Shown here: positions 4,559 through 46,405 of the stretch, piece after piece | Numbering within the stretch: position 1 is the first letter of the stretch | Layout: every line of letters starts with the position of its first letter | Source: a virus | DNA: 64,000 bases | Direction: 5' to 3' (one strand) | IMG/VR virus record: IMGVR_UViG_3300030098_004363 | Coordinates: 29,213-93,212 of that record | Program-made: the position numbers and the translations under genes | The notes under the pieces: generated by a model | Told to the model about the DNA's origin: nothing | The model's input: only the letters and a program-made list of their open reading frames with translations | Databases searched by the model: none

Positions 4559-6130
4559 CTACAGTTCAAATATTTCGTCTACTATAACGCCATCTCTTTT
4601 GCCCTTGGATGATTTTCCTATTATAAGTATATTGTTTCCATTATATAGAACATTTTTATATTTAATCCAAGCTTCATTAAAAAGAGTTATATTATCAACG
4701 CTACCAGTAGCATCCTCTATCTCTAAAAAACCCATTTCATTGCCAGCGTTCTTGCCCTTTTTCGGTACATACTTCCTCGTTTCGGAAACTGTTGCGGCAA
4801 TCATGACCTTGCCCTCTTTGCCATTGATGAGATCTTTACATGTGGTGTCAGCCCTGCTGGTATCTGAAGACTCTACTTTGGAAAAGGTTAGTGACACGCC
4901 GTAGTAATTTTCTTCCGTTCTAACTATCCACTCTGGATCGTCGTGTAGGGAGACTGGCGGATCTTCTAGCTGCTGTATCAAATCTTTTACTATCTCCAGT
5001 CTATTCTTATTTGTAACCCCGCCACCCTCTTTTCTCGGTCTACCTAGACTTCTAAGAAGCTCTAGCAACGAGTCAAAGGCTTGGTAATTTTCTGAAACCC
5101 ATTCTATTTCTTTGTTGGATAGCTTTTCAAACGTGTCAAATTCATAGAGCATCTTTTGTCTTGAAACTTTAAGGTTTGACAAAACTCCAGACGATATTAA
5201 AGCTCTGGTTGCCGTTTTGTTTATCTTCCTAGAAATGAGGACTAAAAATTCATACCAAGTCCATTCCTTTGATTTCAAAGACTCTTTTAGATCAGAAATA
5301 TTATCTCTTATTGTTGCTATCGTATTAGAGCCTAGAGACTTGACGTTTTTGAGTCCAAAGTAGATTGTGTCGTTTATTACGTCAGTCTCTTCGTTGAGAT
5401 GATCTAAGGATGGAGGATGTATGAATATATCGTTAGACTTAGCGTCTGTGACAAGCTCCTTGACTTCTTTCTGTGGATCTGGCTTTCCGCCCGAATACCT
5501 AAGATAGTTACAGTAGAACTGTAGCGGATAATGCGTTTTAGCGTATGCGCTCCAATATCCGCAAATAGCATAACTAACAGCATGAGATTTGTTAAAGGCG
5601 TAACGGCTAGATTTTTCAATCCAACTAAAAATCTCTTCAGCCGTTTCTTTGGTAACGATACCTTTACTATCAGCCCCAGTTAAGAAAGACTTCTTTACTT
5701 TAGCCATTAGATCTGCCTTCTTTTTGCCGATGGCCTTACGAAGGTCGTCAGCGTCCTGAAGGCTAAAACCAGCTAACTGTTGAGCTATCTGCATTGACTG
5801 CTCTTGATAAACAAGTACACCCTGAGTTTTCTTTAGGATTGGCTCTAATGATTCGTGTAAATATGTTACTGACTCTTCACCATTCTTCCTATCGACGTAA
5901 TGTTGAGTCATAGACTTTCCATCAACTATAGCTTTTAAACATCCCGGACGGATGATGGCTATTAAGTCGGAAAGCTCTTCCATATTCTTGGGCTTAACTT
6001 TCTTAGCCCAACTTCTTCCTAAACTACTCTCTAACTGAAAAACGCCCTTTGTTCTTCCGCTACAGATTGTGTCCCATGTGGACTCGTCGTCAAAAGATAG
6101 GTTTATAGGATCAAAGGTGGATGTTTCCAT
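4559..6130 (-). CDS. dnaE: DNA polymerase III alpha subunit, C-terminal half
   Basis: 523 residues that align with the second half of bacterial DnaE. It starts just before GVFQLESS and has IAIIRPGC, the YQEQSMQIAQQLAGFS segment, DDLRKAIGKKK and YAFNKSHAVSYA (fingers), then helix-hairpin-helix and a C-terminal OB domain (KVMIAATVSETRKYVPKKG). All three catalytic Asp residues are in the other half, encoded at 7044-8951. The ATG at 6130 follows AAAAGG; the gene overlaps the exonuclease gene by 20 nt. The two halves must assemble in trans to make an active polymerase (inference). No intein sequence is seen at the joint. Confidence 0.92.
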   Translation of the reverse strand: METSTFDPINLSFDDESTWDTICSGRTKGVFQLESSLGRSWAKKVKPKNMEELSDLIAIIRPGCLKAIVDGKSMTQHYVDRKNGEESVTYLHESLEPILKKTQGVLVYQEQSMQIAQQLAGFSLQDADDLRKAIGKKKADLMAKVKKSFLTGADSKGIVTKETAEEIFSWIEKSSRYAFNKSHAVSYAICGYWSAYAKTHYPLQFYCNYLRYSGGKPDPQKEVKELVTDAKSNDIFIHPPSLDHLNEETDVINDTIYFGLKNVKSLGSNTIATIRDNISDLKESLKSKEWTWYEFLVLISRKINKTATRALISSGVLSNLKVSRQKMLYEFDTFEKLSNKEIEWVSENYQAFDSLLELLRSLGRPRKEGGGVTNKNRLEIVKDLIQQLEDPPVSLHDDPEWIVRTEENYYGVSLTFSKVESSDTSRADTTCKDLINGKEGKVMIAATVSETRKYVPKKGKNAGNEMGFLEIEDATGSVDNITLFNEAWIKYKNVLYNGNNILIIGKSSKGKRDGVIVDEIFEL

Positions 6131-6794
6131 CTGCAAATGCCTTTTCAAATTTTACGCTAGGAGAAACCCTTCTGATAAGCTTCATGAAGGCAATTAATAG
6201 ATTGGCAGTGTCTTTTACGTCTTGTAAAGCGTCATGGGCATTTTCTTTGTCCATACCAAGCAAGTCTCTCATTGAATCCATACTTAAGGATTTAACGTCT
6301 GCGTTGTTCTCCATCCACATCCATACCGTATGCATTAAATCAACCTTGTGAATAGGATTAAACAAGCCCTGCCTGCCTGACTTGTTGTGCGTAGGACCAT
6401 ATTGTTGGCACATACGTTCAACGATAGGCATGTCGAAACCAATTATGTTGTAACCAGCAGCGATAGGAGCGTAGTAGTTTGTTTTTTTGAAGTTGTACTT
6501 ATTGACAAAGTTTGTGAACTTTTGCCAAACCGCTTTTGGCTGCGGCGCTTTTGCTAAATCTTCTCTATTCTTTCTAGTGACGGCGAGAGCTTCGTCCTCT
6601 ACTGGATCTAAACCCAGCTCAATAGCCTTATCGTCATCTAAAATAGGTCGTATTTCACTATTAAAATAACCTCCGGGCTGCACGGTGAGCTTGCGCCCAT
6701 GAATAGCAACTGCGGCAATTTGTGTCGGTTGACACTTATATGGGTTTCTACCACCCGTCTCAAAGTCAAATACAATAATATCTCTGTAATTCAT
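6111..6794 (-). CDS. dnaQ: DnaQ-like 3'-5' exonuclease (proofreading)
   Basis: 227 residues with a full DEDDh set: Asp10 and Glu12 in VFDFETGG, Asp121 in AGYNIIGFD, and His187 and Asp192 in AHDALQDV. This family removes mispaired 3' ends and in bacteria is the epsilon subunit. It lies between the two polymerase half-genes and overlaps both neighbours by a few bases, which fits a role as the proofreading partner of the split polymerase. It lacks the long C-terminal tail by which E. coli epsilon binds alpha. Confidence 0.92.
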   Translation of the reverse strand: MNYRDIIVFDFETGGRNPYKCQPTQIAAVAIHGRKLTVQPGGYFNSEIRPILDDDKAIELGLDPVEDEALAVTRKNREDLAKAPQPKAVWQKFTNFVNKYNFKKTNYYAPIAAGYNIIGFDMPIVERMCQQYGPTHNKSGRQGLFNPIHKVDLMHTVWMWMENNADVKSLSMDSMRDLLGMDKENAHDALQDVKDTANLLIAFMKLIRRVSPSVKFEKAFADGNIHL

Positions 6795-7043: not shown

Positions 7044-8951
7044 TTAAGATTCTTCCAGTTGGTCTCTAATACCCATTACTTTATCTAAAAGTGAGATGCC
7101 TAAAACATCAAACTTGACATGACCCATAGCCTCAAGGTCGTTCATTTCCATACCGGCCATTTTTTCTGAACTAGATTTGTCTCTAACCATAGGACATACC
7201 TCGTTCAAATTATTGGAGGAAATTACAACTCCAGCTGCGTGCTTACCCTGAGACTTGAATGTACCTTCAATGCGCATTGCTTGTTCAAACAATTTTGCAT
7301 AGTCGCCCTCTAGCTCGCCTTCGTCATTCATCCTGCAATACTCTCTCAAGACTTCCGGCTGATTTATCAAAGTCCACCGTATTACTGATGGATCGTCCAT
7401 GTCCGCTAGTTGGTCAGATATTTCATGTTCGGGTGGTAGACTTTTTGTTATGACATTCATTTCGTCATAACCGCAAGCCTCATTCATACGTAGAACTTCT
7501 TTAAGTGCGCTTCGCCCTTGAAGTCTTCCAAATGTAACCATTTGACTTACTTTTGAATGTCCATACTTGTCTCTTATATAGTCTATGGTGTCGTCCCTTC
7601 TGGATGCCGGTACATCTATGTCAATATCTGGAAGTGATATGTGATCTTCTGTATTTCTTCCGGCGTTATAAAATCTTTCAAAGATTAATCCATACTCAAT
7701 GGGATCAACCTGTGTTATGCCCACCAAATAAGAAACCAAGCATCCAGCAGCAGAACCTCTTCCGGGTCCGGGAATCCAAGAGTTTGATCTAATATTGTTA
7801 ACTATATCTCTTACTATCAGAAAGTATCCAGACAGGTTTGCATCACTTATGACTTTAAGTTCTTTTTTTATTCTGTCGGCATATATATCTTCAGATGTTT
7901 TTGTGTTTATCTTACCACTTGGCATGAGGAAATTTTTCCATCCCTCTCTGCATAAATGTTTTAGGTAAGCCTCTTCCGCCATGTCTTCTGGGCATTTAAA
8001 CTTAGGCAACATTGGCTGACCAAGAATGTCATAGCTTTCACACATGTCGGCCACATGCATGGTATTCTGCAATTCAGCTTCTGTATGTATTGCCTTCATC
8101 TCTTGTAAAGTTGGGATGTGGAAGTTGTTAGACTTCATAAACCCAGAGAAACCAACGTCCTCATTGTTATCTAACTTGCTTTTTATCTTTCTAAGAGTTG
8201 TTTTCATCGCAGAACACAAAAGTAGTAGGTGGTCTGGTGAATCCTTCTTTTCTGGATAGTGTGAGTCTGAGGTCGCTATCGAGGGTATCTTTAATGTTTT
8301 AGCGATATAGCGCATCCCTTGCGCTACAAGCTTTGCTGCTGGAGAGTTATCTTGGTCTATACACTGCACTTCGATTAGAAAGTTTTCTTTACCAAATATA
8401 TCCATATATTTGTATGCGACTTTTGTGACTTTCTCAACCCAGCTTGGGTCTATATACTTCTTAACTCCAGCCTCTGTTTCTTGACCATACGCAGCTTTAT
8501 AGTCTGTAAAAATCGCGTTAGCCATGTCGCTGCCTAAATGCCCACTAAAAGCCAAAAGGTCTCCGTTAGCATATTGACCGAGCAAATCTAAGTCTAATCG
8601 CGGCTTGTAATAATAAACATCTTCATCGTTACTGCGAGATACAGCCTCGATCAATTTTCCCCAGCCAGTCTTGTTCTTTGCCAGCACTACAAGATGACTC
8701 AGGGTTCTGTTTGATGTTTCTTTTACCGTTGCGTCGTCTTGACTGAGATAGAACTCACAGCCTAACACAGGTTTGATATTTTTTGCTTTACAAGCCTTAG
8801 TGAAAGAGACAGCTCCAGACACGGTTCCGTGATCTGTCAGTGCGCAAGAGCTAAATCCCAAGTCTGCACACCTGCTTGCGATCTGTTGCGGCCTAGACAG
8901 GCCATCAAGTAGGCTGTAGTGACTGTGTAAATGTAATGGAGTCCAATTCAT
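7044..8951 (-). CDS. dnaE: DNA polymerase III alpha subunit, N-terminal half (PHP and catalytic core)
   Basis: 635 residues. The PHP domain comes first: HLHSH at 7-11 and ALTDHG at 37-42. The palm follows: PGPGRGSAAGC around 394-404, PDIDIDV at 441-447 with two catalytic Asp, and KFDVLG at 613-618 with the third (E. coli D401, D403, D555). The protein stops about 20 residues after that motif. In E. coli this is the linker before VFQLES, the motif with which the C-terminal half-gene opens. The gene is thus split at a natural joint rather than broken by mutation. The next upstream gene is a RecB/Cas4-type nuclease. Confidence 0.93.
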   Translation of the reverse strand: MNWTPLHLHSHYSLLDGLSRPQQIASRCADLGFSSCALTDHGTVSGAVSFTKACKAKNIKPVLGCEFYLSQDDATVKETSNRTLSHLVVLAKNKTGWGKLIEAVSRSNDEDVYYYKPRLDLDLLGQYANGDLLAFSGHLGSDMANAIFTDYKAAYGQETEAGVKKYIDPSWVEKVTKVAYKYMDIFGKENFLIEVQCIDQDNSPAAKLVAQGMRYIAKTLKIPSIATSDSHYPEKKDSPDHLLLLCSAMKTTLRKIKSKLDNNEDVGFSGFMKSNNFHIPTLQEMKAIHTEAELQNTMHVADMCESYDILGQPMLPKFKCPEDMAEEAYLKHLCREGWKNFLMPSGKINTKTSEDIYADRIKKELKVISDANLSGYFLIVRDIVNNIRSNSWIPGPGRGSAAGCLVSYLVGITQVDPIEYGLIFERFYNAGRNTEDHISLPDIDIDVPASRRDDTIDYIRDKYGHSKVSQMVTFGRLQGRSALKEVLRMNEACGYDEMNVITKSLPPEHEISDQLADMDDPSVIRWTLINQPEVLREYCRMNDEGELEGDYAKLFEQAMRIEGTFKSQGKHAAGVVISSNNLNEVCPMVRDKSSSEKMAGMEMNDLEAMGHVKFDVLGISLLDKVMGIRDQLEES

Positions 8952-26599: not shown

Positions 26600-26762
26600 T
26601 TTTTGCTTTACCCTTATAAATTAATGTAACTCCACCCTTTTTATGAGGACCCTTCCTTGAGTATAAGAATACTTCCCCAGTCCTTGGGTGTTCGTATTCA
26701 TATTTTATACGACCTTTGGTATTAAGCCTTAGAGCTTCTGTGTATTTATTTTTTTTAAACAT
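26592..26762 (-). CDS. short basic protein
   Basis: 56 residues, Lys/Arg rich, beta-type (GRIKYEYEHPRTGEVFLYSR). Its ATG overlaps the stop of the dipeptidase gene (TAATG) and its end overlaps the next start by 8 nt, so it is probably translated. Unknown function. Confidence 0.65.
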   Translation of the reverse strand: MFKKNKYTEALRLNTKGRIKYEYEHPRTGEVFLYSRKGPHKKGGVTLIYKGKAKNG

Positions 26763-28003
26763 TATTTCCAGCCTTCTAGTAAGAACCTTAGAGAATTTCT
26801 ACCTAAAATATTTGTGATTGTACTATCGCTGTATTTGTCTTCGTTTACAGATGACTTTAGACATTTTAGATACCTAGTCAATCTAGGTAACTCTGATATG
26901 TCTGTGATCTCATCTGGAGGATCTGTAAACCCGTCGAAGTCAGTTCCTATTGCAAGAACTTTATCTCCAGCTATATTTATTATGTGATCTATTGTACGTT
27001 CTATATGCTTTAAGCCTAATCCTGAATCTATTGGGCTTAGCCAATAATTCATAAAGATAATACCTATCAGACAGTTATGGTCTGCTAGCCACTTTATTTC
27101 CCAGTCCTCTAAGTTTAGCGGGTCTGGGTTAACGGCATAAGCACCGATATGGCTAGCAATAACCTTAGACAAGTCATTACCAACTATGTCATAGACTTCT
27201 TGCCTAGCTTTTGGCGTGCAGTGGGTTATGTCTATAATCATACCCATTTCTTTCATGGCTTGCACCACCTTTTTACCAGTTGATGTTAGACCCTTATTCA
27301 TATCCCAGCCAGCCATTAGGTTTTTCCAATTACTTCTTTTAATACCGTATTCTGGGTATGGAAACACAGGACTAACCAAGTGGTTTGGGTAAAAGTGAGC
27401 AAGAGTAAGATAGGCAACACCCCTGTTATAGAAGTGTTCAAGATTTTCCATTAGCTCATTTTCTATAAGGGGTTTCACAGCGGTTGTCTCACCAACACGC
27501 TTCTTTGCTAATTCACCATTTAGGGAATGACCTCCCTCCACAGAATGTATCATTGCCAAATTTTCATCAGCAACAGTTTGTTCAAGCTCTTTTATGTTTT
27601 TTACAAATTTAAATTGTCTTTCCGACATAGAGATTGCATTGTAGTCGTCAACTTCTTTTTCCATGCGATCCATCATTGCATTGGTCGCGTCAAAGTAAGT
27701 AGGCTGAAAAACTCTTTTGTTTACAGAAGGATAGAGCCACTTTAGAAATTTGATGAGCTTTTGATCATCCACCCACTCTATCTCAGGTATGTAAGATGTG
27801 GAAAGAACTACATCTAAACCTCCTTCTTCCATCTTTGGTAGCGTGTTTCTTTCGCTTAGAGGCCAAAAAGCCCTCTTAAATAATCTAGTTAAGAACCTAG
27901 ACTCTTTACCGTCAAGAGAACGGTCAAACAAAAAGTTCTTGAGAGTTCCGTGATTGTGCCAGTCAAATATCAAAGATTGTTCGTGTAGGTTTTTCCAGCT
28001 CAT
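26762..28003 (-). CDS. membrane dipeptidase family M19
   Basis: 413 residues, the usual M19 length. Zinc-site motifs in order: FDWHNHG at 13-19 (the usual HxD is HxH here), MIHSVEGG (bridging Glu), YLTLAHF, DITHC, ASHIGAYAVN and IGTDFDGF. M19 enzymes cleave dipeptides, often with a D-residue at the C side. There is no signal peptide. A dipeptidase is rarely described in phages; next to holin-like proteins it might act on cell-wall peptides or salvage amino acids (inference). Confidence 0.85.
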   Translation of the reverse strand: MSWKNLHEQSLIFDWHNHGTLKNFLFDRSLDGKESRFLTRLFKRAFWPLSERNTLPKMEEGGLDVVLSTSYIPEIEWVDDQKLIKFLKWLYPSVNKRVFQPTYFDATNAMMDRMEKEVDDYNAISMSERQFKFVKNIKELEQTVADENLAMIHSVEGGHSLNGELAKKRVGETTAVKPLIENELMENLEHFYNRGVAYLTLAHFYPNHLVSPVFPYPEYGIKRSNWKNLMAGWDMNKGLTSTGKKVVQAMKEMGMIIDITHCTPKARQEVYDIVGNDLSKVIASHIGAYAVNPDPLNLEDWEIKWLADHNCLIGIIFMNYWLSPIDSGLGLKHIERTIDHIINIAGDKVLAIGTDFDGFTDPPDEITDISELPRLTRYLKCLKSSVNEDKYSDSTITNILGRNSLRFLLEGWK

Positions 28004-33081: not shown

Positions 33082-33916
33082 TTAAACTCCTAAATTTGAA
33101 TGGCATTTCAGTGTGACACCAATTTACATTTTGAAAACCGTACTCTAAGCCATTTAAGTCTATTACTTCGTCGTTAAGATACTTATTGTTTAAGTATTCT
33201 TCTGTGTACGGATACATAAGACCAGCGACCAGAGGAGGGTCTTGGACACAGTTTGTAGCTATACTAAACAGGCAATTCTGTTTGCAGGCTACCATGTTTT
33301 CTTCAGGCACATCTTTCCTGCTTTTACCAGCTATTACGCCCTCCCATTGACGAAGGTAGTCAAAGGGGTATTTGTTTGTTAATTCAGCCAGTTGTTTTGT
33401 TCTGAATACATGTCCATCAAGAGATATGGGGTATCCATAGTTCAGGGTGCTATCCCAATTCTTCCAGTTCCATTTGACAAAGTAGGCATTTTCCCCATAG
33501 TCCTCCAGATGATACCTTCCGTCTGGCTTCATGTAATACTGGAGTGTTGTGTTCAGGCCGAGCCTAAAAGAAAAGCAAAACACATCGTCTTCAAATGTGC
33601 TTTCTACGTCTTGCCAAGTGATTGGGATTCTTTTATAGAACACGCAATCGTCAACAATGCCACAGATAAAATGACTGCCACATCCATTGATTGCGTTTTT
33701 GAAGTCTGAGACAAAGTCTTGTTCTTGCTGCCAAGCTAAGTTAGGCAATATTTGTTCGGATTGTAATTTTCTGTAACCTTCTTCGTATAGAAAATTAGAC
33801 CCTTTATAGATTATCAATATTTGGTTAAAAAAATTATCAGCGTTAAGCTTTATACTTTCTAAAAGAAGTCTTAGTTGACATGCTCTGTCTTTTGAGACAA
33901 TGAGAGCATTTATCAT
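33074..33916 (-). CDS. GT-A-type glycosyltransferase-like protein, paralogue of 23641-24498
   Basis: 280 residues. NALIVSKDRACQLRLLLESI begins the fold, and the later FICGIVDDCVFYK has an acidic pair where a DXD motif would sit (GIVDD). SLDGHVFR and LEDYGENAYFVKW are shared in kind with the other copy. Probably sugar transfer; acceptor unknown. Followed by PAP2 and GT4 genes. Confidence 0.72.
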   Translation of the reverse strand: MINALIVSKDRACQLRLLLESIKLNADNFFNQILIIYKGSNFLYEEGYRKLQSEQILPNLAWQQEQDFVSDFKNAINGCGSHFICGIVDDCVFYKRIPITWQDVESTFEDDVFCFSFRLGLNTTLQYYMKPDGRYHLEDYGENAYFVKWNWKNWDSTLNYGYPISLDGHVFRTKQLAELTNKYPFDYLRQWEGVIAGKSRKDVPEENMVACKQNCLFSIATNCVQDPPLVAGLMYPYTEEYLNNKYLNDEVIDLNGLEYGFQNVNWCHTEMPFKFRSLNV

Positions 33917-34590
33917 TCTTTAAGGTTTTCCTTTATGTTTTCCCAGAGTAGCCTACAAACAATCATGGATGCTTCGTTATCGCTAGGATAGTGAACTCCT
34001 TGTAAAACTCTGGCTTCACCACACATATCTGCAAGCTTATACCACTGAGTTTTGTGTTCAGGGTAAATATCTGACAGTATTTCAGCGGTTATAGCGCCGT
34101 TATGTTGATGTCCAGAAGGATACGAAGGAGTGTGATGCGTATCAGTTTGTAATGTTGATATAACATAACCAAGCTCAGGAGCTAATTGATAAGGTCTAGC
34201 TCTACCAAACTTATACTTTAGTTTTAGGATTACAGCATTTGTTTGTTTCTGAACTTTTCTTATGAGATCTTCTGGATAGTAAAGATTATTCTTTTTGCAG
34301 TAGTCAGAGAAAAGCTGAAAGGCATCGTCATCAACTAAGAGAACTAAATTTCTTTCTTCTTCCGTTAGATTCTTTGTCTTTCTCTCAAGGATTTGCAGAT
34401 CTATTTTTGTGGAGTCACTGTCGTTAGCTGGCGGAGGTGGAATTAAGTTTTCCCAATCAACAGTGATGAGATCAAGCTCAACATCCATATCTTTCTTGAT
34501 TCTGTCGGAAGGTTCGTCGGTATATTTTATGGAGTTTATACTCTGCGCTCTAGCTTTAGAGGCTTTTTGCAGGGGGTGTTCTTTATTCAT
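33913..34590 (-). CDS. PAP2-family phosphatase
   Basis: 225 residues. The three PAP2 motifs are present: KYKFGRARP (KX6RP), YPSGH (PSGH) and ARVLQGVHYPSD (SRX5HX3D with Ala for Ser). There is no transmembrane region, so it is like the soluble acid phosphatases rather than lipid phosphatases. It could remove phosphate from sugar or lipid-carrier substrates of the nearby transferases. Confidence 0.82.
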   Translation of the reverse strand: MNKEHPLQKASKARAQSINSIKYTDEPSDRIKKDMDVELDLITVDWENLIPPPPANDSDSTKIDLQILERKTKNLTEEERNLVLLVDDDAFQLFSDYCKKNNLYYPEDLIRKVQKQTNAVILKLKYKFGRARPYQLAPELGYVISTLQTDTHHTPSYPSGHQHNGAITAEILSDIYPEHKTQWYKLADMCGEARVLQGVHYPSDNEASMIVCRLLWENIKENLKE

Positions 34591-35683
34591 CTGACACGGC
34601 TTTCATTATTTTCTGCACGGTAGCATCCCAAGAGAACTCTTTCGATGTATCAATACCAGCTTGATTTATATTTAGTTCATCACTTTGTTTTAGCTTATGA
34701 ACAGACTTCATATGCTCTGCAATTTGATCTATCTGCTCGTCGCCAATCTTTGCCCACTGACCTTGACCTTTGAACCAAATGCCGTCTTGAGCATCCTCTA
34801 ACTCAGAGACTTCTACAAGTAGTGAGTTTTCTTCGTTCAGAAACTCAGTGTGACCTGAATAGTTTGTGGCAATCACCTGCTTGCCGCAAGCTAACATTTC
34901 TAACGCTTCAAGATTCCACCCTTCTGCCCTTGCGGGAAATACACCACAGTCTGCTTGGCTCATGACCTGATAAACGTCCTGTTGAGATTCTTGTCTTGGT
35001 ATAATTCTAATCTTTTCACCCAAAGCCGAACCTCTATACTTCCTTTCCCATTCAAAGTTTTGATCGTCAGTATAAAACGGGTTGTCACACATCATCCAAA
35101 GTTCAGCATTGTCTTCTTCAGTAAAAGCCCTGTTAAAGGCTTCTACTAAAACGTCATGACCTTTTCTAACCTCCCACTTGCCAATATTTAGGAATGTTGT
35201 TGTTGGCCTACTTGAAACAGAATCTCTAAAAATACTTCTGTCAACACCCAGAGGTATAACATAAACCTCATCTTCTTTTACGTCAGGAGAAAGCTGTTCT
35301 AGAATTACGTCTTTTGCCCACTGAGAACAAACAAAAAGTTTATCTGGGAATTTAAGATGATGTTTTTCTTGATCGGTAAACTTATTTAATTCAAAGATTG
35401 GGAAACCAACCCTGACTCCAGCGCCAACAAATTCCGCCATGTCATTTTGATGCCAGAGCCTAATTGAAGGCGCATCAAAGTCTGGAAATCTTGCCGACTC
35501 AAAACAACCTTTGAGGAAGCCATGCAAATTTGGATCTGCTTGAATTTGTCCTAAAACAAAAAGAGACACATCCTGACCACTCTCTAAAAGAGACTTGACA
35601 ATATTAAGACCTGTCACGCCGTAGCCCAGTTGGTTGATAGGCGCTGTAATGTTGAATTTTTGTGTGGATTGTAAGAACGCCAC
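34583..35683 (-). CDS. GT4-family glycosyltransferase
   Basis: 366 residues. FLNIGKWEVRKGHDVLVEAF opens the second Rossmann domain; FPARAEGWNLEALEMLACGK and QVIATNYSGHTEF form the donor site with E-x7-E. Start is GTG at 35683, with GGAG 7 nt upstream. It is unlike the genes at 1-3.6 kb in detail, so probably has its own specificity. Confidence 0.9.
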   Translation of the reverse strand: MAFLQSTQKFNITAPINQLGYGVTGLNIVKSLLESGQDVSLFVLGQIQADPNLHGFLKGCFESARFPDFDAPSIRLWHQNDMAEFVGAGVRVGFPIFELNKFTDQEKHHLKFPDKLFVCSQWAKDVILEQLSPDVKEDEVYVIPLGVDRSIFRDSVSSRPTTTFLNIGKWEVRKGHDVLVEAFNRAFTEEDNAELWMMCDNPFYTDDQNFEWERKYRGSALGEKIRIIPRQESQQDVYQVMSQADCGVFPARAEGWNLEALEMLACGKQVIATNYSGHTEFLNEENSLLVEVSELEDAQDGIWFKGQGQWAKIGDEQIDQIAEHMKSVHKLKQSDELNINQAGIDTSKEFSWDATVQKIMKAVSDE

Positions 35684-35695
35684 TTTTGTTCTCCG

Positions 35696-36685
35696 TTATA
35701 AAAGATTTCTTGATTCTTCTATTCTATTTTTCCAATAGGAAAGTTTTATTTTGTCTAAGTTAAAGTTTTGTTTTGTAGAAATAAATTCTAACAATAAGTT
35801 TTCAGATAAGTCAAACATATCACCAAGAACTACAACTGGCAATTCTGTCATGTAATTTGCTGATGGAGCGTAAGAGACTACAGGTATGCAACCAGTATAT
35901 AAAGCCTCTAAATTTCTGTAACAATCCCATCCATTTCCTTCTGGCGACACCGCAAAGAAGTGTTTGGAAAGGTCATCTAGATAATCTCTATAGGATCTTT
36001 CGGGATTTTGTACAACGCTAGTCCAGTGAAATTGCCTTTGCGAGAAGTATCTCTTAAGTTCTGCTCTTTCTGTTGTGTGATCTTGGAAATTAAAATATGC
36101 AAGATTGATTCTATCTGAAAAAGATAGTTTATTGGTAGCAATTATATCATCTGTTGCATCTTTACCAACTCCTAAAGGTATGTGAATTATTCTTGGGTCT
36201 TCAATTCTTGAGTTTACTGTGTACCATTTAACTACGTTGTCTGGTATCTTGTCAAAAGTAGAATAGGTGTAAGAGTAACACCTAACAGAGTATTCGTCTT
36301 CTATATTGCATTGTTCTATTTCGCACCTCGGAGGAATGAACAGAGGGTCATAGCCTAACTTCACTATCTCTCCATAGAGAAAAGGCATAAACTTTATAAA
36401 GTCATATGCTGGAGGATGTTCTTCCTGCTTGGCAACTCCGTAGTCGCTGAAGCCGCTGATAACAATATACTTGTTATCTGTTTGTTTGCATTTTTCAAAA
36501 AATTTGTGTATGTGTTCTATGTTGCAATAGACAATGCCTGACTCTGGAATTGAGTCGTCATCGTGGTCGATTTCATAATTGCAATCACCAAGACCCATCC
36601 AAGACTTGACATTTATTATATCTTCAGGAGGTATCTTTTCCTGAAATACGCTATTCCAAAAATCTATTACTTCTTGGTGAAACAT
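35696..36685 (-). CDS. exostosin-like glycosyltransferase (GT47-type)
   Basis: 329 residues. The C-terminal part has FAVSPEGNGWDCYRNLEALY and GCIPVVSY, the donor-binding pattern of exostosin-type transferases. The N-terminal half is not clearly related to known families. It would transfer sugar in the cytoplasm. A gap of 39 nt with an AGTATT/AATACT inverted repeat separates it from kdsA upstream. Confidence 0.72.
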   Translation of the reverse strand: MFHQEVIDFWNSVFQEKIPPEDIINVKSWMGLGDCNYEIDHDDDSIPESGIVYCNIEHIHKFFEKCKQTDNKYIVISGFSDYGVAKQEEHPPAYDFIKFMPFLYGEIVKLGYDPLFIPPRCEIEQCNIEDEYSVRCYSYTYSTFDKIPDNVVKWYTVNSRIEDPRIIHIPLGVGKDATDDIIATNKLSFSDRINLAYFNFQDHTTERAELKRYFSQRQFHWTSVVQNPERSYRDYLDDLSKHFFAVSPEGNGWDCYRNLEALYTGCIPVVSYAPSANYMTELPVVVLGDMFDLSENLLLEFISTKQNFNLDKIKLSYWKNRIEESRNLL

Positions 36686-36724: not shown

Positions 36725-37489
36725 CTAGTCTTGAATAGATAGCAAGCCTTTTAGCACATCATCGAACTCGTCTAGTTTTAGCATGTTTGGCCCATCGCTC
36801 AAAGCATTGTCTGGGTCTGGATGGACTTCAAAAAATAACCCATCAGCACCAATCGCTAGTGCCGCTTTAGCCAGTGGTACTACAAATCTTCTATTGCCGC
36901 CGCTAGTTTCGCCAAGACCTCCCGGTTCTTGTACGCTATGTGTTGCATCAAAAATGACAGGAAAGCCCGTTGATTTCATTTTGACTATGGATGTCATATC
37001 ATTGACAAGATGACCATAGCCAAAAAAGGTTCCCCTTTCAGTTAAATAAAGATGTGAACAGCCAAAATGCTTTAATTTTGAAATCACGTTGTTCATATCC
37101 TCTGGAGCCATGAACTGTCCTTTTTTAACATTTACGGGCTTCCCTGTCTTAGCTGCCGCTTCAAGTAAATCTGTTTGTCTAGAAAGAAATGCTGGTATTT
37201 GTATTATATCAACACATTCTGAAATGACTTCAGCTTGCCAAGGCTCGTGTATATCGGTTGTTATTTTAAGCCCCATTAGCTGGATCTGCTTAAATATGTC
37301 AACCGCCTGCTCTATATTAACACCTCTATAGGAGTTTATGCTCGACCTATTTGCTTTATCAAAAGATGCTTTGAATACAAAATCAATATCATTGTCTTTT
37401 AAAAATCTAGCGGTAGAGCAAAGTTTTCTGGCTATAGATAAAACTTCCTCTTCGCCTTCTATTACACAAGGTCCGGCTATTACTATCAT
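36725..37489 (-). CDS. kdsA: KDO-8-phosphate synthase
   Basis: 254 residues. IAGPCVIEGEE, FKASFDKANRSS, TDIHEPWQ, QIPAFLSRQTDLLEAAA and NVKKGQFMAPED, then TERGTFFGYGHLVNDM and FDATHSVQEPGG follow KdsA motif by motif. It joins phosphoenolpyruvate and arabinose-5-phosphate to make KDO-8-phosphate, the precursor of the LPS inner-core sugar. This implies a host with KDO-type LPS. It is a metabolic gene seldom carried by phages. Confidence 0.93.
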   Translation of the reverse strand: MIVIAGPCVIEGEEEVLSIARKLCSTARFLKDNDIDFVFKASFDKANRSSINSYRGVNIEQAVDIFKQIQLMGLKITTDIHEPWQAEVISECVDIIQIPAFLSRQTDLLEAAAKTGKPVNVKKGQFMAPEDMNNVISKLKHFGCSHLYLTERGTFFGYGHLVNDMTSIVKMKSTGFPVIFDATHSVQEPGGLGETSGGNRRFVVPLAKAALAIGADGLFFEVHPDPDNALSDGPNMLKLDEFDDVLKGLLSIQD

Positions 37490-37669: not shown

Positions 37670-37828
37670 TTAATTCTTAATTTCCGAAACCGTAGTCATT
37701 ATCTCTAGTAGAAATCCCAAACACAACGCAAACATGGTAAGCGGAACTATAACAATCATAAGGAGAATTATATACCTGTTTAATAACGTGAAATCAATTC
37801 TCTTTAGTTTCTCTATTAGACTCTTCAT
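37670..37828 (-). CDS. single-pass membrane peptide
   Basis: 52 residues from the ATG at 37828 (AAGG 8 nt upstream). A basic N-terminus (KSLIEKLKRIDF) precedes a long hydrophobic segment (YIILLMIVIVPLTMFALCLG). Not recognised. Confidence 0.62.
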   Translation of the reverse strand: MKSLIEKLKRIDFTLLNRYIILLMIVIVPLTMFALCLGFLLEIMTTVSEIKN

Positions 37829-38126
37829 TGGACAAGCCTTTCTGAACTTCTGCATTACGGAAGTTCTCAGCAAATTCTTGGAAGCCCTTTATAACCTCTT
37901 CTCTTGCTATCGGTCTTGCTATTCTCCTAATTGATGAGTGCATCTCGTCTTCTATCATATCTAAAAACATTTCAAGTTTAATTGATGTGTTATTAAGATA
38001 TATGTTAGTGAGATACATTTCACCTTCAAGTTGAGTAATTCTTTTTTCCTGTTTGTAGTTTATCAATCCTAAACATCCTATAGTGATTGCCATTATTGCT
38101 AGGCAGAGCATGTTTAGTTTCTTCAT
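37794..38126 (-). CDS. predicted lipoprotein or membrane-anchored helical protein
   Basis: 110 residues. The N-terminal segment LNMLCLAIMAITIGCLG has a lipobox-like ITIGC. The remainder is charged and helical (RITQLEGEMYLTNIYLNNTS). Predicted to sit at a membrane. Unknown role; it overlaps the next gene by 35 nt. Confidence 0.6.
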   Translation of the reverse strand: MKKLNMLCLAIMAITIGCLGLINYKQEKRITQLEGEMYLTNIYLNNTSIKLEMFLDMIEDEMHSSIRRIARPIAREEVIKGFQEFAENFRNAEVQKGLSNEESNRETKEN

Positions 38127-38128
38127 TA

Positions 38129-38596
38129 TTAAAACCTAAATTGAAAGTAAAACCCGCTAAACGGCATTGGATAAACCGGAACAGGTTGTGGTTGCATAAT
38201 CACAGGGGGATGATACACTCTGTAAAATCCATGTATTGGATGATACCTAGTCTCTACGGAAGGGTAATAAAATTGGTGAATATATGGTCTACCAATTATT
38301 ATGCTTCCATGTCTGTAGTTGTGGCTAGGTCTGACTTGTTGCTGTTGTGGTTGTGGTTGTTGCCACTCTTGTTTGCCAAACCCCATAGGTCTTTGTATGG
38401 GTCTTCCAAAACCTTGAGGTAATTGCGATCTCGTGGTAGTTGGAGGTTTGGCGATGGTTGAAGGATTAATAACTCTTTGTACTTGAGGCGATTGCGGCCT
38501 CGCTGTAGTTGGAGGTTTAATTACTTTTTTCTCCTGAGCATTAGCAACTGAACATGTCATTAGTATTGCCAATAAAAAGCCTAAAACCTTTTTCAT
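38129..38596 (-). CDS. secreted Pro/Gln-rich protein
   Basis: 155 residues. A clear signal peptide ends in SVANAQE, with cleavage likely after ANA. The mature part is low complexity: PPTTARPQSPQ-type repeats, a Gln-rich tract, then a Tyr/Pro/His-rich tail (FYYPSVETRYHPIHGFYRVY). GAGGTG lies 4 nt before the ATG. The composition is like exported proteins of planctomycete cell surfaces; role unknown. Confidence 0.68.
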   Translation of the reverse strand: MKKVLGFLLAILMTCSVANAQEKKVIKPPTTARPQSPQVQRVINPSTIAKPPTTTRSQLPQGFGRPIQRPMGFGKQEWQQPQPQQQQVRPSHNYRHGSIIIGRPYIHQFYYPSVETRYHPIHGFYRVYHPPVIMQPQPVPVYPMPFSGFYFQFRF

Positions 38597-39012: not shown

Positions 39013-40248
39013 TCACACCAATATAGACTTAGTACCAACGTCTAAGAAATAACGTGGCCTTCCAGCCATGTCTAATCTCTGCGTGTGTTGGTCAATACCA
39101 AAGTGTTTAAGTAATGTTGCTGTTAAGTTCTGTGGGTTGTGCGGGTCTGTCTTTGGTTCTTCTGCTTTAGAAGTAGACTCGCCAAGAGCATAGCCCATAA
39201 GGAAATCTCCACCAGAAATCATTAGTGGTGATAGTCTAGGCCAATGGTCACGACCAGCATTTCCATTTATTTTATATGTGCGACCAAACTCACCTGTAAC
39301 AACAACCATAATATCTTTATTAAGACCTTTATCGTGTATGTCTTTAATTAGAGCAGTAAGAGCCTTATCAACTGGTGGAACTCTACCCTTTAATGAATTA
39401 GAGATATTAGAGTGCATATCCCAGCCGCCATATTGGATTGTAACGAATTTAGTGCCTCTTTCGGCAAGCCTTCTAGCGAGAAGTAGCTGTTCTCCAATAC
39501 CACTTCCATACTCTTCTAAATTCTTTGGGTCTTCTTTTTTAACATCAAAAGCATCTGCAATATTGCCTAGAAGCATATTGTAGGATTGATCGCGCAAGCT
39601 AGTATTGTCTCGCAATCTATCAAGACCTGTTAGTAAATCCTGACGACCGAGAAAATGCTTTTCGTCTACTTTGAGTTGTAGATTTTTTACACCTTCGCCA
39701 GTAGCTTCATAAGGTTTATAGTCAGAACCAAGCCAAGCACCACCATCATAAGTGATATTATTGACTCTTACATAAGCTGGCATACCAGTGATTGGATTGT
39801 TTGACCCATAGGAACTGGCTACCATAGAACCATATGAAGGATTGTAAGCTGGTGATAATGGAGTATTATCTGTACTGTTGTAGCCAGTCATTACCCAATG
39901 AGTACCAGTTCTATGACTAGCGTTACCGTGAGCAAACGATCTAACAACGGTCATCTTGTCGCCAACTGTTGCTAAGTTTTCCCAGTCAGCACCAATTCTA
40001 TAACCAGCATTTGTTTTGATCCAGCCATTAACTGCTCTAACATTATCGGGAGCATCTGGCTTTGGGTCGAATGTTTCTACTTGTGTTGCTCCACCACCTA
40101 GCCAAACCCATATAACTGATTTGTCGTTTGGTGATAAACAAACAGGGGCATCTTCTGCTTTTATATCTGATAATCCAATGGCACTTAGTCCAGCACTAAT
40201 GCCGCCTACTCTCATAAAGTCTCTACGGTTGAATTGAAAATCTATCAT
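39013..40248 (-). CDS. DUF1501 protein with Tat signal
   Basis: 411 residues from the ATG at 40248 (AAGG 9 nt upstream). The N-terminus NRRDFMRVGGISAGLSAIGL is a twin-arginine export signal. VIWVWLGGGATQVETFDPKP, RSFAHGNASHRTGTHWVMTG, GWDMHS and TGEFGRTYKINGNAGRDHWP are typical of DUF1501, an alkaline-phosphatase/sulfatase-like family. DUF1501 is very numerous in Planctomycetes. A phage copy could have been taken from a host of that phylum. The protein would fold in the cytoplasm and be exported. Confidence 0.9.
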   Translation of the reverse strand: MIDFQFNRRDFMRVGGISAGLSAIGLSDIKAEDAPVCLSPNDKSVIWVWLGGGATQVETFDPKPDAPDNVRAVNGWIKTNAGYRIGADWENLATVGDKMTVVRSFAHGNASHRTGTHWVMTGYNSTDNTPLSPAYNPSYGSMVASSYGSNNPITGMPAYVRVNNITYDGGAWLGSDYKPYEATGEGVKNLQLKVDEKHFLGRQDLLTGLDRLRDNTSLRDQSYNMLLGNIADAFDVKKEDPKNLEEYGSGIGEQLLLARRLAERGTKFVTIQYGGWDMHSNISNSLKGRVPPVDKALTALIKDIHDKGLNKDIMVVVTGEFGRTYKINGNAGRDHWPRLSPLMISGGDFLMGYALGESTSKAEEPKTDPHNPQNLTATLLKHFGIDQHTQRLDMAGRPRYFLDVGTKSILV

Positions 40249-40792
40249 TATTGTAAACCTTATCGAAGTCAAAGAACCGCCAGCGGTTCATATGTTTTGC
40301 ATCATCATCTTCGTCAACGTGACGTAGATACTCCAATAGTTCACTCCAATTTGAAAATACCATTTCATGGGGAACCACACCAAACATCCAGTTTGGTAAA
40401 TTTTCCTTCCCCTGTTTGCACATTATTACAACAGGCTTCTTCTGAGCTATAGCAACTGAGGCTTCGTGGTAGGAACCACATAGGTGGGAGTCAACATCTA
40501 AACTCATTACTATAAAATGAGCTATGTCAACCATTCTCAGATCAATAGCGCAAATAGGTTTCATTATCTTAGACACTTCGTCATACTTTCCACGCTTCTT
40601 TAAGCTGGTTATATGATCTCTTGTGTCGTGATCTTCAGTTCCGTAGTCACTTGGTTTATCGCATGGGTCTAACACTCCTACCCCAAGCTCTTGGAGTTTG
40701 GGGGTCATATATTGTCGCCACTTAACTCCACCATCTTCTACCCTGTCCATAGCGCCGCACAGATATGCGGTCATTCCTTTTAACCTATTCAT
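40223..40792 (-). CDS. nucleoside 2-deoxyribosyltransferase-like protein
   Basis: 189 residues from the ATG at 40792. TAYLCGAMDRVEDGG opens the Rossmann-like fold, LDPCDKP and MVDIAHFIVMSLDVDSHLCG follow, and GSYHEASVAIAQKKPVV carries the catalytic Glu position. The family swaps bases on deoxynucleosides or splits nucleotides. A start 7 codons later (MTAYLCG) fits the fold equally well. It may be a nucleotide-salvage or anti-defence enzyme (inference). Confidence 0.75.
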   Translation of the reverse strand: MNRLKGMTAYLCGAMDRVEDGGVKWRQYMTPKLQELGVGVLDPCDKPSDYGTEDHDTRDHITSLKKRGKYDEVSKIMKPICAIDLRMVDIAHFIVMSLDVDSHLCGSYHEASVAIAQKKPVVIMCKQGKENLPNWMFGVVPHEMVFSNWSELLEYLRHVDEDDDAKHMNRWRFFDFDKVYNNDRFSIQP

Positions 40793-40795
40793 ATT

Positions 40796-40804
40796 ATTAT
40801 ACAC
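40796..40804 (-). promoter_or_regulatory. GTGTATAAT promoter-like box
   Basis: GTGTATAATAATATG overlaps the stop of the upstream gene and lies immediately before the deoxyribosyltransferase start, so transcription might begin at or inside the first codons and favour the MTAYLCG start. Confidence 0.4.
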
Positions 40805-41382: not shown

Positions 41383-42210
41383 CTATGCGGTCATCAGAGC
41401 CGTGAGCGACTCGATACGCTCACGAACATTGTCACGCCATGCCTCGTCGTAATGAGTCACTTCAACCTCTACAGGCGGCTTGTCGCTCATCTGAACGGAG
41501 TCCTTGAGTGGATCAGTAAACAGAGCCACAACCTCATACTTGCAACAACGCAACTTCTGGTATCGTGAATCGTGAGGTACGCTAACAACATCCATAGGAT
41601 TGACTTTGACCACTAAGAACTGGTCGCCACCATCTTGACTTCCATAGTCTTTGACATAATCCAAAGAGCCTACATGAAGTCCTTTACTACAACCGTTGTT
41701 ACGATTGCTATCAACATTACCTCGGTCAACTTCAACTGTGTTACCAACTGAGTTATCAAAGGTTCCACTCCACTTATCTTTGAAGTCTTTGTCCACAGCC
41801 TTGTACGCAAGGAAGTGACCATCATCAGTGATAGGTAGATGCTCATGTTGCATGAAGTCAAACAACTCCACAATAGCATGGTCAGAAGGGTTTTCATTCA
41901 TGTTGTTTAAGAACTCCAACATTGGTTGGAAGTTGAACCCTTCAGTCTTCATCTTCAAGATACGCTCAGTGAATAGTTCTGGCATCTCAATACCATCCCA
42001 CTGAAGTGTACCATTCTTAACGTCAATGTATCCTTCACAGAAGTTGTCTATTGCCGCAACGACATCATAGTCAGCTTCAAAGTATTCAACATTACCATCA
42101 ATCAAGTGACCTACTAACTTGGTATAGTTGGGATGGTTTTTGTCGAAGGTGTAGGTCTTACCAGCGACAACACAATTTACAACGCCTTTGTTGCTTACAA
42201 TGTAACTCAT
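41383..42210 (-). CDS. rIIB: rIIB-like protein
   Basis: 275 residues. MPELFTERILKMKTEGFNFQ, LEFLNNMNENPSDHAI, FDFMQHEHLPITDDGHFLAY and the following KAVD segment match phage rIIB-type proteins. So do CSKGLHVGSLDYVKDYG and the later Val-rich strand. In T4, rIIA and rIIB protect against RexAB exclusion; the mechanism is unknown. It directly follows rIIA. Confidence 0.85.
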   Translation of the reverse strand: MSYIVSNKGVVNCVVAGKTYTFDKNHPNYTKLVGHLIDGNVEYFEADYDVVAAIDNFCEGYIDVKNGTLQWDGIEMPELFTERILKMKTEGFNFQPMLEFLNNMNENPSDHAIVELFDFMQHEHLPITDDGHFLAYKAVDKDFKDKWSGTFDNSVGNTVEVDRGNVDSNRNNGCSKGLHVGSLDYVKDYGSQDGGDQFLVVKVNPMDVVSVPHDSRYQKLRCCKYEVVALFTDPLKDSVQMSDKPPVEVEVTHYDEAWRDNVRERIESLTALMTA

Positions 42211-42234: not shown

Positions 42235-44400
42235 CTATTTATTGGAAAGGACTAACTTAACGTAGTCCAGAATGTGTGCTTTGCGAATTTCTCGTTCTGC
42301 TTCATTGTCGTAGTATGAGTGGAGTTCGGTGTAGTTCAGTACAGGGAAAGTATCAGTGATTTTACTTTCTCTCTTATTCCACTCATCAGGGTCTACAGTG
42401 ACATCATCCTGAAGTCCACGACCCAAGCCAAGATGCCTGTTGAGCGAACTCATGGCAACCCACAGCTTTTCGTTTGAACGATACCACTTGTAGTCATCGA
42501 CATACTCTCGTATCTCTTCAGGCAGATTGTCTACTTCAGATAGCCAATTAGCAACAAGTTCTTTTGAAGCATTTTCATGTTGTCTCCAAGCGATATGTTC
42601 AACATTCCACTCAAGAACTTCAGCAATGCGATCATTGTATGCCGACTGCATGTAATCAAAGTAGCTAGTCCACTGACCATTAGCATTAAACTTCTTCTTC
42701 TTTAGCTCTTGACTCTTGATGCCGTAGATAGGAACTTCTTCATCAATCTCACAGCCAATGTCTGCAAGTAGCTCATTAAACCTTTTGATGTTATTCCAAT
42801 CACCCATGCGATTGCCATCACGACCAACAATCTCATAGCGATTGATCTCAAAGTATAAGCCGCCTTCTTCCATGTCTACTTCAATGTCTTTCCAGTGACC
42901 ACGATTGTAGTCCCAGATACACACTTTACTTCTGTAACTAGCACCAGAGTTATTGCTTCTGCTTCTAGTAACTGATGGAAGACTTGAGGCAAGGATCAAG
43001 TGTTCTTCAGTACAACCCAACCATTTCATAACGGACTGCTTGTCGCCGTCACTAATTAGGTAATAGTCAAACTTGTTCTTTTCTCGGTCATGCTTATCAC
43101 CAAGTTGTCCCTTAGCATAGTTCTTAGCACGAGAAACAGCACCACGTTTCAGGTCATCCAAGATTAGAACTATAACTTTAGTACCACTATCAAATCGAAT
43201 AAACTCCGTGTCATCACAACTAATAGCAGTCTTCCAGTTTTCTCGATATATCTTACGAATCTTGTACTTGGGAACTTCCATGTCTTTACCAGTGACATCT
43301 TGGACAGTCTTCTTTGGTGCATACAGTCTGTCGTAAGCATCATCAAACAAGTCTTTACCGTTCCACTGAATCTTGTCACTGAATGTTTTAACGATCTCAC
43401 TCAAGTGACCGCCTTCTCTACGGAAGTTCTTGTATTTGATTCGTGCGTCCCAATGCGTAGGACATTCATCAAAGCTCTCACCAAGAGTCTCTTTCATTTC
43501 TTCAATGATAAACTCACAGGCTTCAACAATAGCTTTCTTGGTATACTCGTTGTAACTAAGAGATTCACGACTTGGTGTAATGTCTACATCACCAATAGCA
43601 AAGTGAATGTGTAAATTAGTTCTCAATACAGCAGTAACAGTTTCATTGTACGCTGAAAACTGCTCTGAATCAAGATCATATGCAACCTGACCCATGATAG
43701 CTTTAGCTTTAATGTCCCATCGTCGCTGTTTATTGCTGTTCAACAAACCCCAAGTGCTACCAGTCAAGATATAATCGAAGTCTTCTATTTCAATATCACT
43801 ATTGAAGTTGGGCTTAACCTTGAAGTGTTTGTATACTTCTTTAGCTTCCTCCTCGAACTCTTGTACATCATCAGTATCTACACTAAACAATACATGCAAT
43901 CCATTAGGCTCAGTAGTATCATTTTCTGACATCAAAGCAAACACAGGTTTATTGTGTTCATCTTTGAAAGAATTATAAACACGCACTTTACCATTGTGAT
44001 AAGAAGTGACAATGAAACTGTCTGTATAAGCAAATGGTGATTTACTACCAAGACCAAGACAGCCGACTGCATCATTGGTATTAGTCTTCGTGCTACCAAA
44101 GTATGTAGTGTAAAGATTCATGCAGTCTTCGTGAGATAGGCCAGTGCCGAAGTCACGAATCGCAAAGTAAGGATTAAACCTATCTGGCATAGTGACACTA
44201 AACGGAACGTCACGCTTACCAGCGTCAACATGAGCATCGTAAGCATTTGTAGAAAGCTCACGAATAACAGCTTTGATCTTATTTGAGTATAGACCGTCCG
44301 AGAGGATCGAGAAGGCTTTAGCCGATGCCTCAATCGTGTAAGTGGATTCTTCAAAGTCACCTGACCGTACAACGCTGTTTACTTCATTCTGCAATTTCAT
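42235..44400 (-). CDS. rIIA: rIIA-like GHKL ATPase
   Basis: 721 residues, as long as T4 rIIA (725). The GHKL ATP-binding motifs stand in order: IRELSTNAYDAHVDAG (N box), AIRDFGTGLSHED (G1) and CLGLGSKSPFAYTD (G2). The rest is the large conserved rIIA body. It is transcribed from a good sigma70-like promoter at 44447-44475. It probably works with rIIB against host defence or in early host takeover. Confidence 0.9.
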   Translation of the reverse strand: MKLQNEVNSVVRSGDFEESTYTIEASAKAFSILSDGLYSNKIKAVIRELSTNAYDAHVDAGKRDVPFSVTMPDRFNPYFAIRDFGTGLSHEDCMNLYTTYFGSTKTNTNDAVGCLGLGSKSPFAYTDSFIVTSYHNGKVRVYNSFKDEHNKPVFALMSENDTTEPNGLHVLFSVDTDDVQEFEEEAKEVYKHFKVKPNFNSDIEIEDFDYILTGSTWGLLNSNKQRRWDIKAKAIMGQVAYDLDSEQFSAYNETVTAVLRTNLHIHFAIGDVDITPSRESLSYNEYTKKAIVEACEFIIEEMKETLGESFDECPTHWDARIKYKNFRREGGHLSEIVKTFSDKIQWNGKDLFDDAYDRLYAPKKTVQDVTGKDMEVPKYKIRKIYRENWKTAISCDDTEFIRFDSGTKVIVLILDDLKRGAVSRAKNYAKGQLGDKHDREKNKFDYYLISDGDKQSVMKWLGCTEEHLILASSLPSVTRSRSNNSGASYRSKVCIWDYNRGHWKDIEVDMEEGGLYFEINRYEIVGRDGNRMGDWNNIKRFNELLADIGCEIDEEVPIYGIKSQELKKKKFNANGQWTSYFDYMQSAYNDRIAEVLEWNVEHIAWRQHENASKELVANWLSEVDNLPEEIREYVDDYKWYRSNEKLWVAMSSLNRHLGLGRGLQDDVTVDPDEWNKRESKITDTFPVLNYTELHSYYDNEAEREIRKAHILDYVKLVLSNK

Positions 44401-46309: not shown

Positions 46310-46331
46310 CTTATTTCTCCATTAAAGGTAG

Positions 46332-46405
46332 TAGGCTTGGTAGGACTTGAACCCACGACAAAGGGATTATGAGTCCCCTGCTCTAACCAACTGAGCTACA
46401 AGCCC
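46332..46405 (-). tRNA. tRNA with CAU anticodon (Met or Ile2)
   Basis: 74 nt. The acceptor is GGGCTTG/CAAGCCT, the D arm carries TAGCTCAGTTGGTTAGAGC, the anticodon loop is CTCATAA and the T loop is TTCAAGT. Stem GGGGA/TCCCT. The ACTCATAAT context is like tRNA-Ile2, whose C34 becomes lysidine, but elongator Met cannot be excluded. CCA is not encoded. Confidence 0.9.

Follow-up and report, generated by a model that had tools for sequence, protein, structure and literature searches.

The stretch of DNA analyzed here (the window, 64,000 bases) corresponds to bases 29213-93212 of a 93,212-base IMG/VR virus contig and carries, at 39013-40248 on the minus strand, a gene for a DUF1501 protein that is the only DUF1501 copy in the whole contig. 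The open reading frame spans 39013-40272(-) and the protein of 411 aa starts at the ATG at 40248, with a Shine-Dalgarno-like AAGG (40258-40261, minus strand) located 9 bases 5' of the start codon. As the initial annotation had proposed, the protein is an intact DUF1501 member, matching the PF07394 profile with an E-value of 5e-71 and 240 bits against a cut-off of 27 over profile positions 2-377 of 390, i.e. a full-length domain above the curated cut-off. No family in PHROGs or NCBIfam matched the protein, and a PDB sequence search returned no significant relative. In pairwise comparisons with close phage relatives the gene gave dN/dS values of about 0.04-0.07, indicating strong purifying selection, and it is almost certainly a phage gene under selection.

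The N-terminus of the protein (MIDFQFNRRDFMRVGGISAGLSAIGLSDIKA) contains the twin-arginine motif NRRDFM followed by a moderately hydrophobic core, assigned as a Tat signal peptide of residues 1-31 (40156-40248, minus strand) whose end is approximate. The presence of a twin-arginine signal, also suggested in the initial annotation, was borne out, with RRx[FLIM] present in 153/153 viral DUF1501 copies with an intact, readable N-terminus, the chance rate being about 5% on shuffling of the first 35 residues of the window protein. Residues 14-34 showed pLDDT values below 50 in an AlphaFold2 model. Judged by its motif, the window protein is very probably exported by Tat.

The AlphaFold2 model was built from 69 sequences (pLDDT 88.7, pTM 0.87) and gave 177 matches at E<=0.001 in a Foldseek comparison with the PDB, covering sulfatases and related enzymes, with a best E-value of 4e-7 and a probability of 1.00. 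TM-scores by query length were at most about 0.46 among the matches listed, so that the match holds for the core fold only, and the protein is predicted to adopt the sulfatase/alkaline-phosphatase superfamily fold. In a sequence alignment with a sulfatase, E320-F321-G-R sits at the D-H-G-R metal motif, the D-H pair being replaced by E-F, and the formylglycine motif C/S-x-P/A-x-R had no match in the window protein. With neither the formylglycine motif nor the D-H metal pair present, sulfatase activity is not supported; of the sulfatase-like protein first suggested for this locus, the superfamily fold stands as a prediction and the activity does not. Residues H112, D277, H279, E320, F321, R323, D334 and H335 were identical in all phage copies of all four paralogue types (A-D, see below), and the family-wide invariant residues (H112, D277, H279, E320, R323, R333, D334 and H335) were all present in the window protein. 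By predicted fold the protein belongs to the superfamily, but it has a conserved site of its own and is no canonical sulfatase, although an active-site-like set of conserved residues would not by itself demonstrate catalysis.

The genes around the DUF1501 gene are likewise encoded on the minus strand. The start of the DUF1501 gene is overlapped by g91 (40223-40804), which is weakly nucleoside 2-deoxyribosyltransferase-like on the basis of sub-threshold PF15891/PF05014 matches and synteny and lies upstream of DUF1501 in many relatives, followed by genes for an rIIB-like protein (41383-42210; phrog_609, E=3e-67) and an rIIA-like ATPase (42235-44400; phrog_612, E=1e-131). On the other side lies g88 (38129-38596), whose small product is rich in P, Q and Y and has a signal-like stretch at the N-terminus, a core GKQxWQ and a C-terminal aromatic FxFRF/W; homologues occur in 23 viral loci, in many relatives the gene stands among DUF1501 copies, and this phage-specific protein gave no family match and no match in the 197 genomes of the planctomycete order searched. 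The neighboring g87 (37794-38126) encodes a small protein with an N-terminal hydrophobic segment and also has homologues near DUF1501 in relatives. Further downstream are genes for KdsA, a 3-deoxy-8-phosphooctulonate synthase (36725-37489; TIGR01362, 355.7 bits against an equivalog cut-off of 314), an exostosin/GT47-like protein below the Pfam cut-off (35696-36685), a GT4 glycosyltransferase (34583-35683) and a PAP2-superfamily phosphatase (33913-34590; PF01569, E=1e-12). Among 19 relatives in which DUF1501 has the same rII context, GT47-like and GT4 genes were found downstream in 16 and 17, respectively, and kdsA near DUF1501 in one only. The genes downstream of DUF1501 point to the envelope, and the phage KdsA suggests interference with host Kdo/LPS synthesis.

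The viral nature of the contig follows from its genes for rIIA, rIIB, a DnaB-type helicase, a DnaE-like polymerase and ribonucleotide reductase. These viral genes, together with a full-length large terminase in long relatives, substantiate the earlier view that the DUF1501 gene is carried by a phage. Structural genes were not recognised in the 93-kb contig, which is itself a fragment. Seven records of this lineage, including a SAR202 MAG, carry a long terminase-like gene, and its nearest match in a cultured phage was about 25% identical, which indicates a tailed-phage lineage with no close cultured relatives. Other features include a DnaE-like DNA polymerase in two genes (4559-6148 and 7044-8951) that represent consecutive parts of phrog_405 with other genes in between, and a peptidase of family M19 (membrane dipeptidase) encoded at 26762-28003 (E=2.5e-50). 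The remaining contig bases 1-29212 (L162 and L163) hold about 33 consecutive genes on one strand, among them aminotransferase-like, HAD-like and GT25-like genes, a long run reminiscent of a large gene cluster for glycans or nucleotide sugars.

DUF1501 relatives were encoded in at least 102 IMG/VR stretches, 80 of which were kept (95 to 39% identity), and a tblastn search of INPHARED with the DUF1501 protein gave no match. In the literature searched, nothing on point was found on planctomycete phages or on DUF1501 in phages; a composting-phage paper gives a weak DUF1501 match for a 61-aa protein (PMC5418858). Whole-contig searches revealed one to four DUF1501 copies per virus record, the additional genes being located downstream in many relatives and the copies of one phage sharing 30-36% identity. 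The copies fall into types A, B, C and D in the nearly fixed order A-B-C-D, with L031 (A-D-B) as the sole departure, and the window has type A only. In counts that include loci ending at contig ends, 9 loci were ABCD, 9 ABD, 8 AB, 6 AD and 47 A only; the L079 locus, sorted as "BD", is A-D by tree, L079_ph1 being type A in the main tree. The DUF1501 block adjoins rIIA/rIIB in one phage group and helicase and polymerase genes in another. A third context was seen on a 153-kb contig (L011, 9950-11251), where the neighbors of DUF1501 are relatives of genes found at the opposite end of the window's contig, and two very large genes (1124 and 1230 aa) lie close by. The phage lineage as a whole thus maintains DUF1501, in as many as four paralogue types.

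In a joint tree with bacterial sequences, type A phage proteins formed one clade (100/99) whose sister comprised Planctomycetota and one Verrucomicrobiales sequence. Type B phage proteins nested among Planctomycetaceae beside L123/L130 (99/94), type C proteins grouped with two Planctomycetota genomes (98/96), and type D proteins were sister, within a planctomycete clade, to chromosomal genes of the Planctomycetaceae MAGs L139 and L140 (96/99), which are true bacterial contigs carrying genes for an ABC transporter, a sigma factor, a MATE transporter and a protein kinase. The highest identities to bacterial proteins, with the SAR202-MAG phage contig L182 left out of the bacterial rows, were 54% for type A (46% for the window's own protein), 88% for type B (to L128/L129), 61% for type C and 76% for type D. 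No close cellular copy of type A was found in 246 planctomycete genomes at a strict limit of 1e-118, a threshold that says nothing of distant copies. The expectation that the nearest relatives lie in Planctomycetes was thus met by types B, C and D, which are nested inside, and type A is only sister to a planctomycete-dominated clade. These placements show several acquisitions of DUF1501 by phages from planctomycetes, so that the gene capture envisaged in the initial annotation holds for types B, C and D of the relatives, but not as a one-off event, given the at least 102 stretches and the up to four types kept.

The genomic setting of the cellular genes differs by type: the planctomycete type D gene adjoins a PSCyt2/PSD1 gene, the type B gene lies two genes away from one, and bacterial type A genes have no constant neighbor. 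Pairing with PSCyt2/PSD1 (DUF1549/DUF1553) is frequent in planctomycetes without being a hallmark of the DUF1501 family. PSCyt2 was found in 0/27 phage contigs, with 60 copies detected in a planctomycete as positive control. Genes of 815 and 335 aa located upstream in some relatives were considered as PSCyt partners and rejected, as PF07583 was absent; their size and position rather suggest the subunits of a class I ribonucleotide reductase. A cellular parallel of the phage arrays was seen in a Verrucomicrobiales MAG (L090, 4508-13219), where five closely spaced DUF1501 genes are accompanied by a PSCyt2-type gene. PSCyt genes adjoin families of unknown role and their own function is likewise unknown (PMC5615132), and in other bacteria DUF1501, with a Tat motif there, occurs in chitin-synthase operons (PMC5122149).

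The window also encodes a tRNA-Met identified by ARAGORN (46331-46405, minus strand), which matched marine Pirellulaceae/Planctomycetaceae genomes at 88-91% over about 79 bases (101-112 bits), the marine origin of these MAGs being taken from record titles and names. Other planctomycetes, Verrucomicrobiota, Acidobacteriota and Poribacteria in the panel reached at most 91.5 bits, and the genomes with the best tRNA-Met matches in the panel also hold the nearest type B and D genes; among 347 genomes of the order, some matches were at 92-96% over similar or shorter stretches. Together with the nesting of types B, C and D, this agrees with the planctomycete affinity first read from the DUF1501 protein, and in all likelihood the host of the phage lineage is a planctomycete. 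The presence of kdsA in the phage speaks for a host whose LPS is of the Kdo type. A SAR202 (Chloroflexota) host, to which L112 (VFHP01000007), a phage contig of this lineage binned with a SAR202 MAG, might point, is highly improbable and was rejected: the tRNA-Met match in SAR202 was at most 74 bits against about 112 in marine Pirellulaceae, kdsA presupposes Kdo-type LPS, and SAR202-class DUF1501 genes were distant (about 1e-35 at best, phage contigs aside), so that the binning of L112 is probably false. Both L112 and L182, contigs of the SAR202 MAG (VFHP01), belong to this phage lineage; their assignment to the MAG is probably a binning error and may mislead host databases.

To our knowledge, a biochemical function has not been established for any DUF1501 protein. 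We propose, with about even confidence, that the phage gene is of host origin and that its Tat-exported product remodels the envelope of the planctomycete in the course of infection. The phages would form a large tailed lineage on marine Pirellulaceae-like Planctomycetota that acquired DUF1501 genes from planctomycetes on several occasions and retained them. From the position of the gene next to rIIA/rIIB we infer that the protein is made during infection, in the early or middle phase; it would then fold in the cytoplasm, be exported by the host Tat system and presumably act in the periplasm or at the cell surface. There it may work as, or replace, one of the host's many DUF1501 proteins with no phage-encoded PSCyt2 partner, and together with the products of the kdsA, glycosyltransferase and PAP2 genes it could give rise to a remodelled envelope glycan layer. 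The purpose of such a change would most likely be receptor masking or exclusion of other phages, superinfection exclusion in particular being a tentative suggestion. Counting against this reading are the single occurrence of kdsA near DUF1501 among the 19 rII-context relatives, the position of DUF1501 beside replication genes in the second phage group and the placement of type A phage proteins as sister to the bacterial clade and not within it. A possible but doubtful extension is a multi-subunit envelope system, in which up to four non-redundant DUF1501 proteins and the phage-specific exported protein g88, using the export pathways of the host, would take over or block the host DUF1501/PSCyt surface machinery. 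If true, this would be a phage strategy undescribed so far and would open a way to learn what one of the most expanded uncharacterized families of planctomycetes does.

Among other explanations, a nutrient-scavenging auxiliary gene is unlikely but the best placed. On this view the exported protein would be a phosphatase or sulfatase-like hydrolase that depends on metal and releases phosphate or sulfate from organic esters in the periplasm for phage synthesis, much as Tat-exported PhoX and PhoD serve bacteria. The predicted superfamily fold and the invariant polar residues of all phage copies are in keeping with this, as is the Tat signal, since metal-loaded periplasmic hydrolases typically leave the cytoplasm by Tat. 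However, the canonical D-H metal pair reads E-F, the formylglycine motif is missing, neither a transporter gene nor one of Pho type was seen to adjoin DUF1501, and up to four diverged copies per cluster exceed the need of a scavenging enzyme. A virion or lysis component, which the adjoining rIIA/rIIB, named as lysis-inhibition genes, might bring to mind, is very improbable, since a Tat signal is unexpected on a capsid or tail protein, no structural gene was recognised nearby in the window and DUF1501 stands among replication genes in other relatives. That DUF1501 is a passenger of no benefit to the phage, easily captured by chance from a host family with more than 100 first-look DUF1501-like candidates in several planctomycete genomes, is scarcely credible and already disfavored by the selection data, in view of the low dN/dS (0.04-0.07), the Tat motif intact in 153/153 copies and the nearly fixed A-B-C-D order.

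DUF1501 proteins are very numerous in planctomycetes, and very little is known of the phages that infect marine members of this group. The occurrence of one to four DUF1501 genes under strong selection in a phage lineage suggests importance during infection, connects a large set of uncultured phages with their probable host and provides, as a set of small natural constructs, a handle on the function of the family. Two questions thereby become testable, namely what DUF1501 proteins do and how phages handle the planctomycete envelope.

Under an envelope-remodelling role, the DUF1501 gene would resemble phage morons and envelope-altering auxiliary genes in being host-derived, in having an exported product and in adjoining glycan-modifying genes, but would differ from them in that up to four paralogues are kept together; no report of DUF1501 among such genes was found in the literature searched. 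A DUF1501 annotation is also present on the record of an uncultured Caudovirales phage (A0A6J5M742 in BFVD/UniProt), although this protein has 489 aa and 13% identity in the structural alignment, and is a single record with no conserved system described. With sulfatases and the alkaline-phosphatase superfamily the protein shares the predicted fold (best Foldseek E-value 4e-7, probability 1.00), whereas it lacks the sulfatase formylglycine motif, has E-F in place of D-H and is only about 10% identical to these enzymes. Unlike bacterial DUF1501 of types B and D, the proteins described here are phage-encoded, with a PSCyt2 partner in 0/27 phage contigs, and in their full-length domain, Tat signal and invariant residues they resemble the DUF1501 (PF07394) proteins of Planctomycetota and Verrucomicrobiota, which are their closest cellular relatives.
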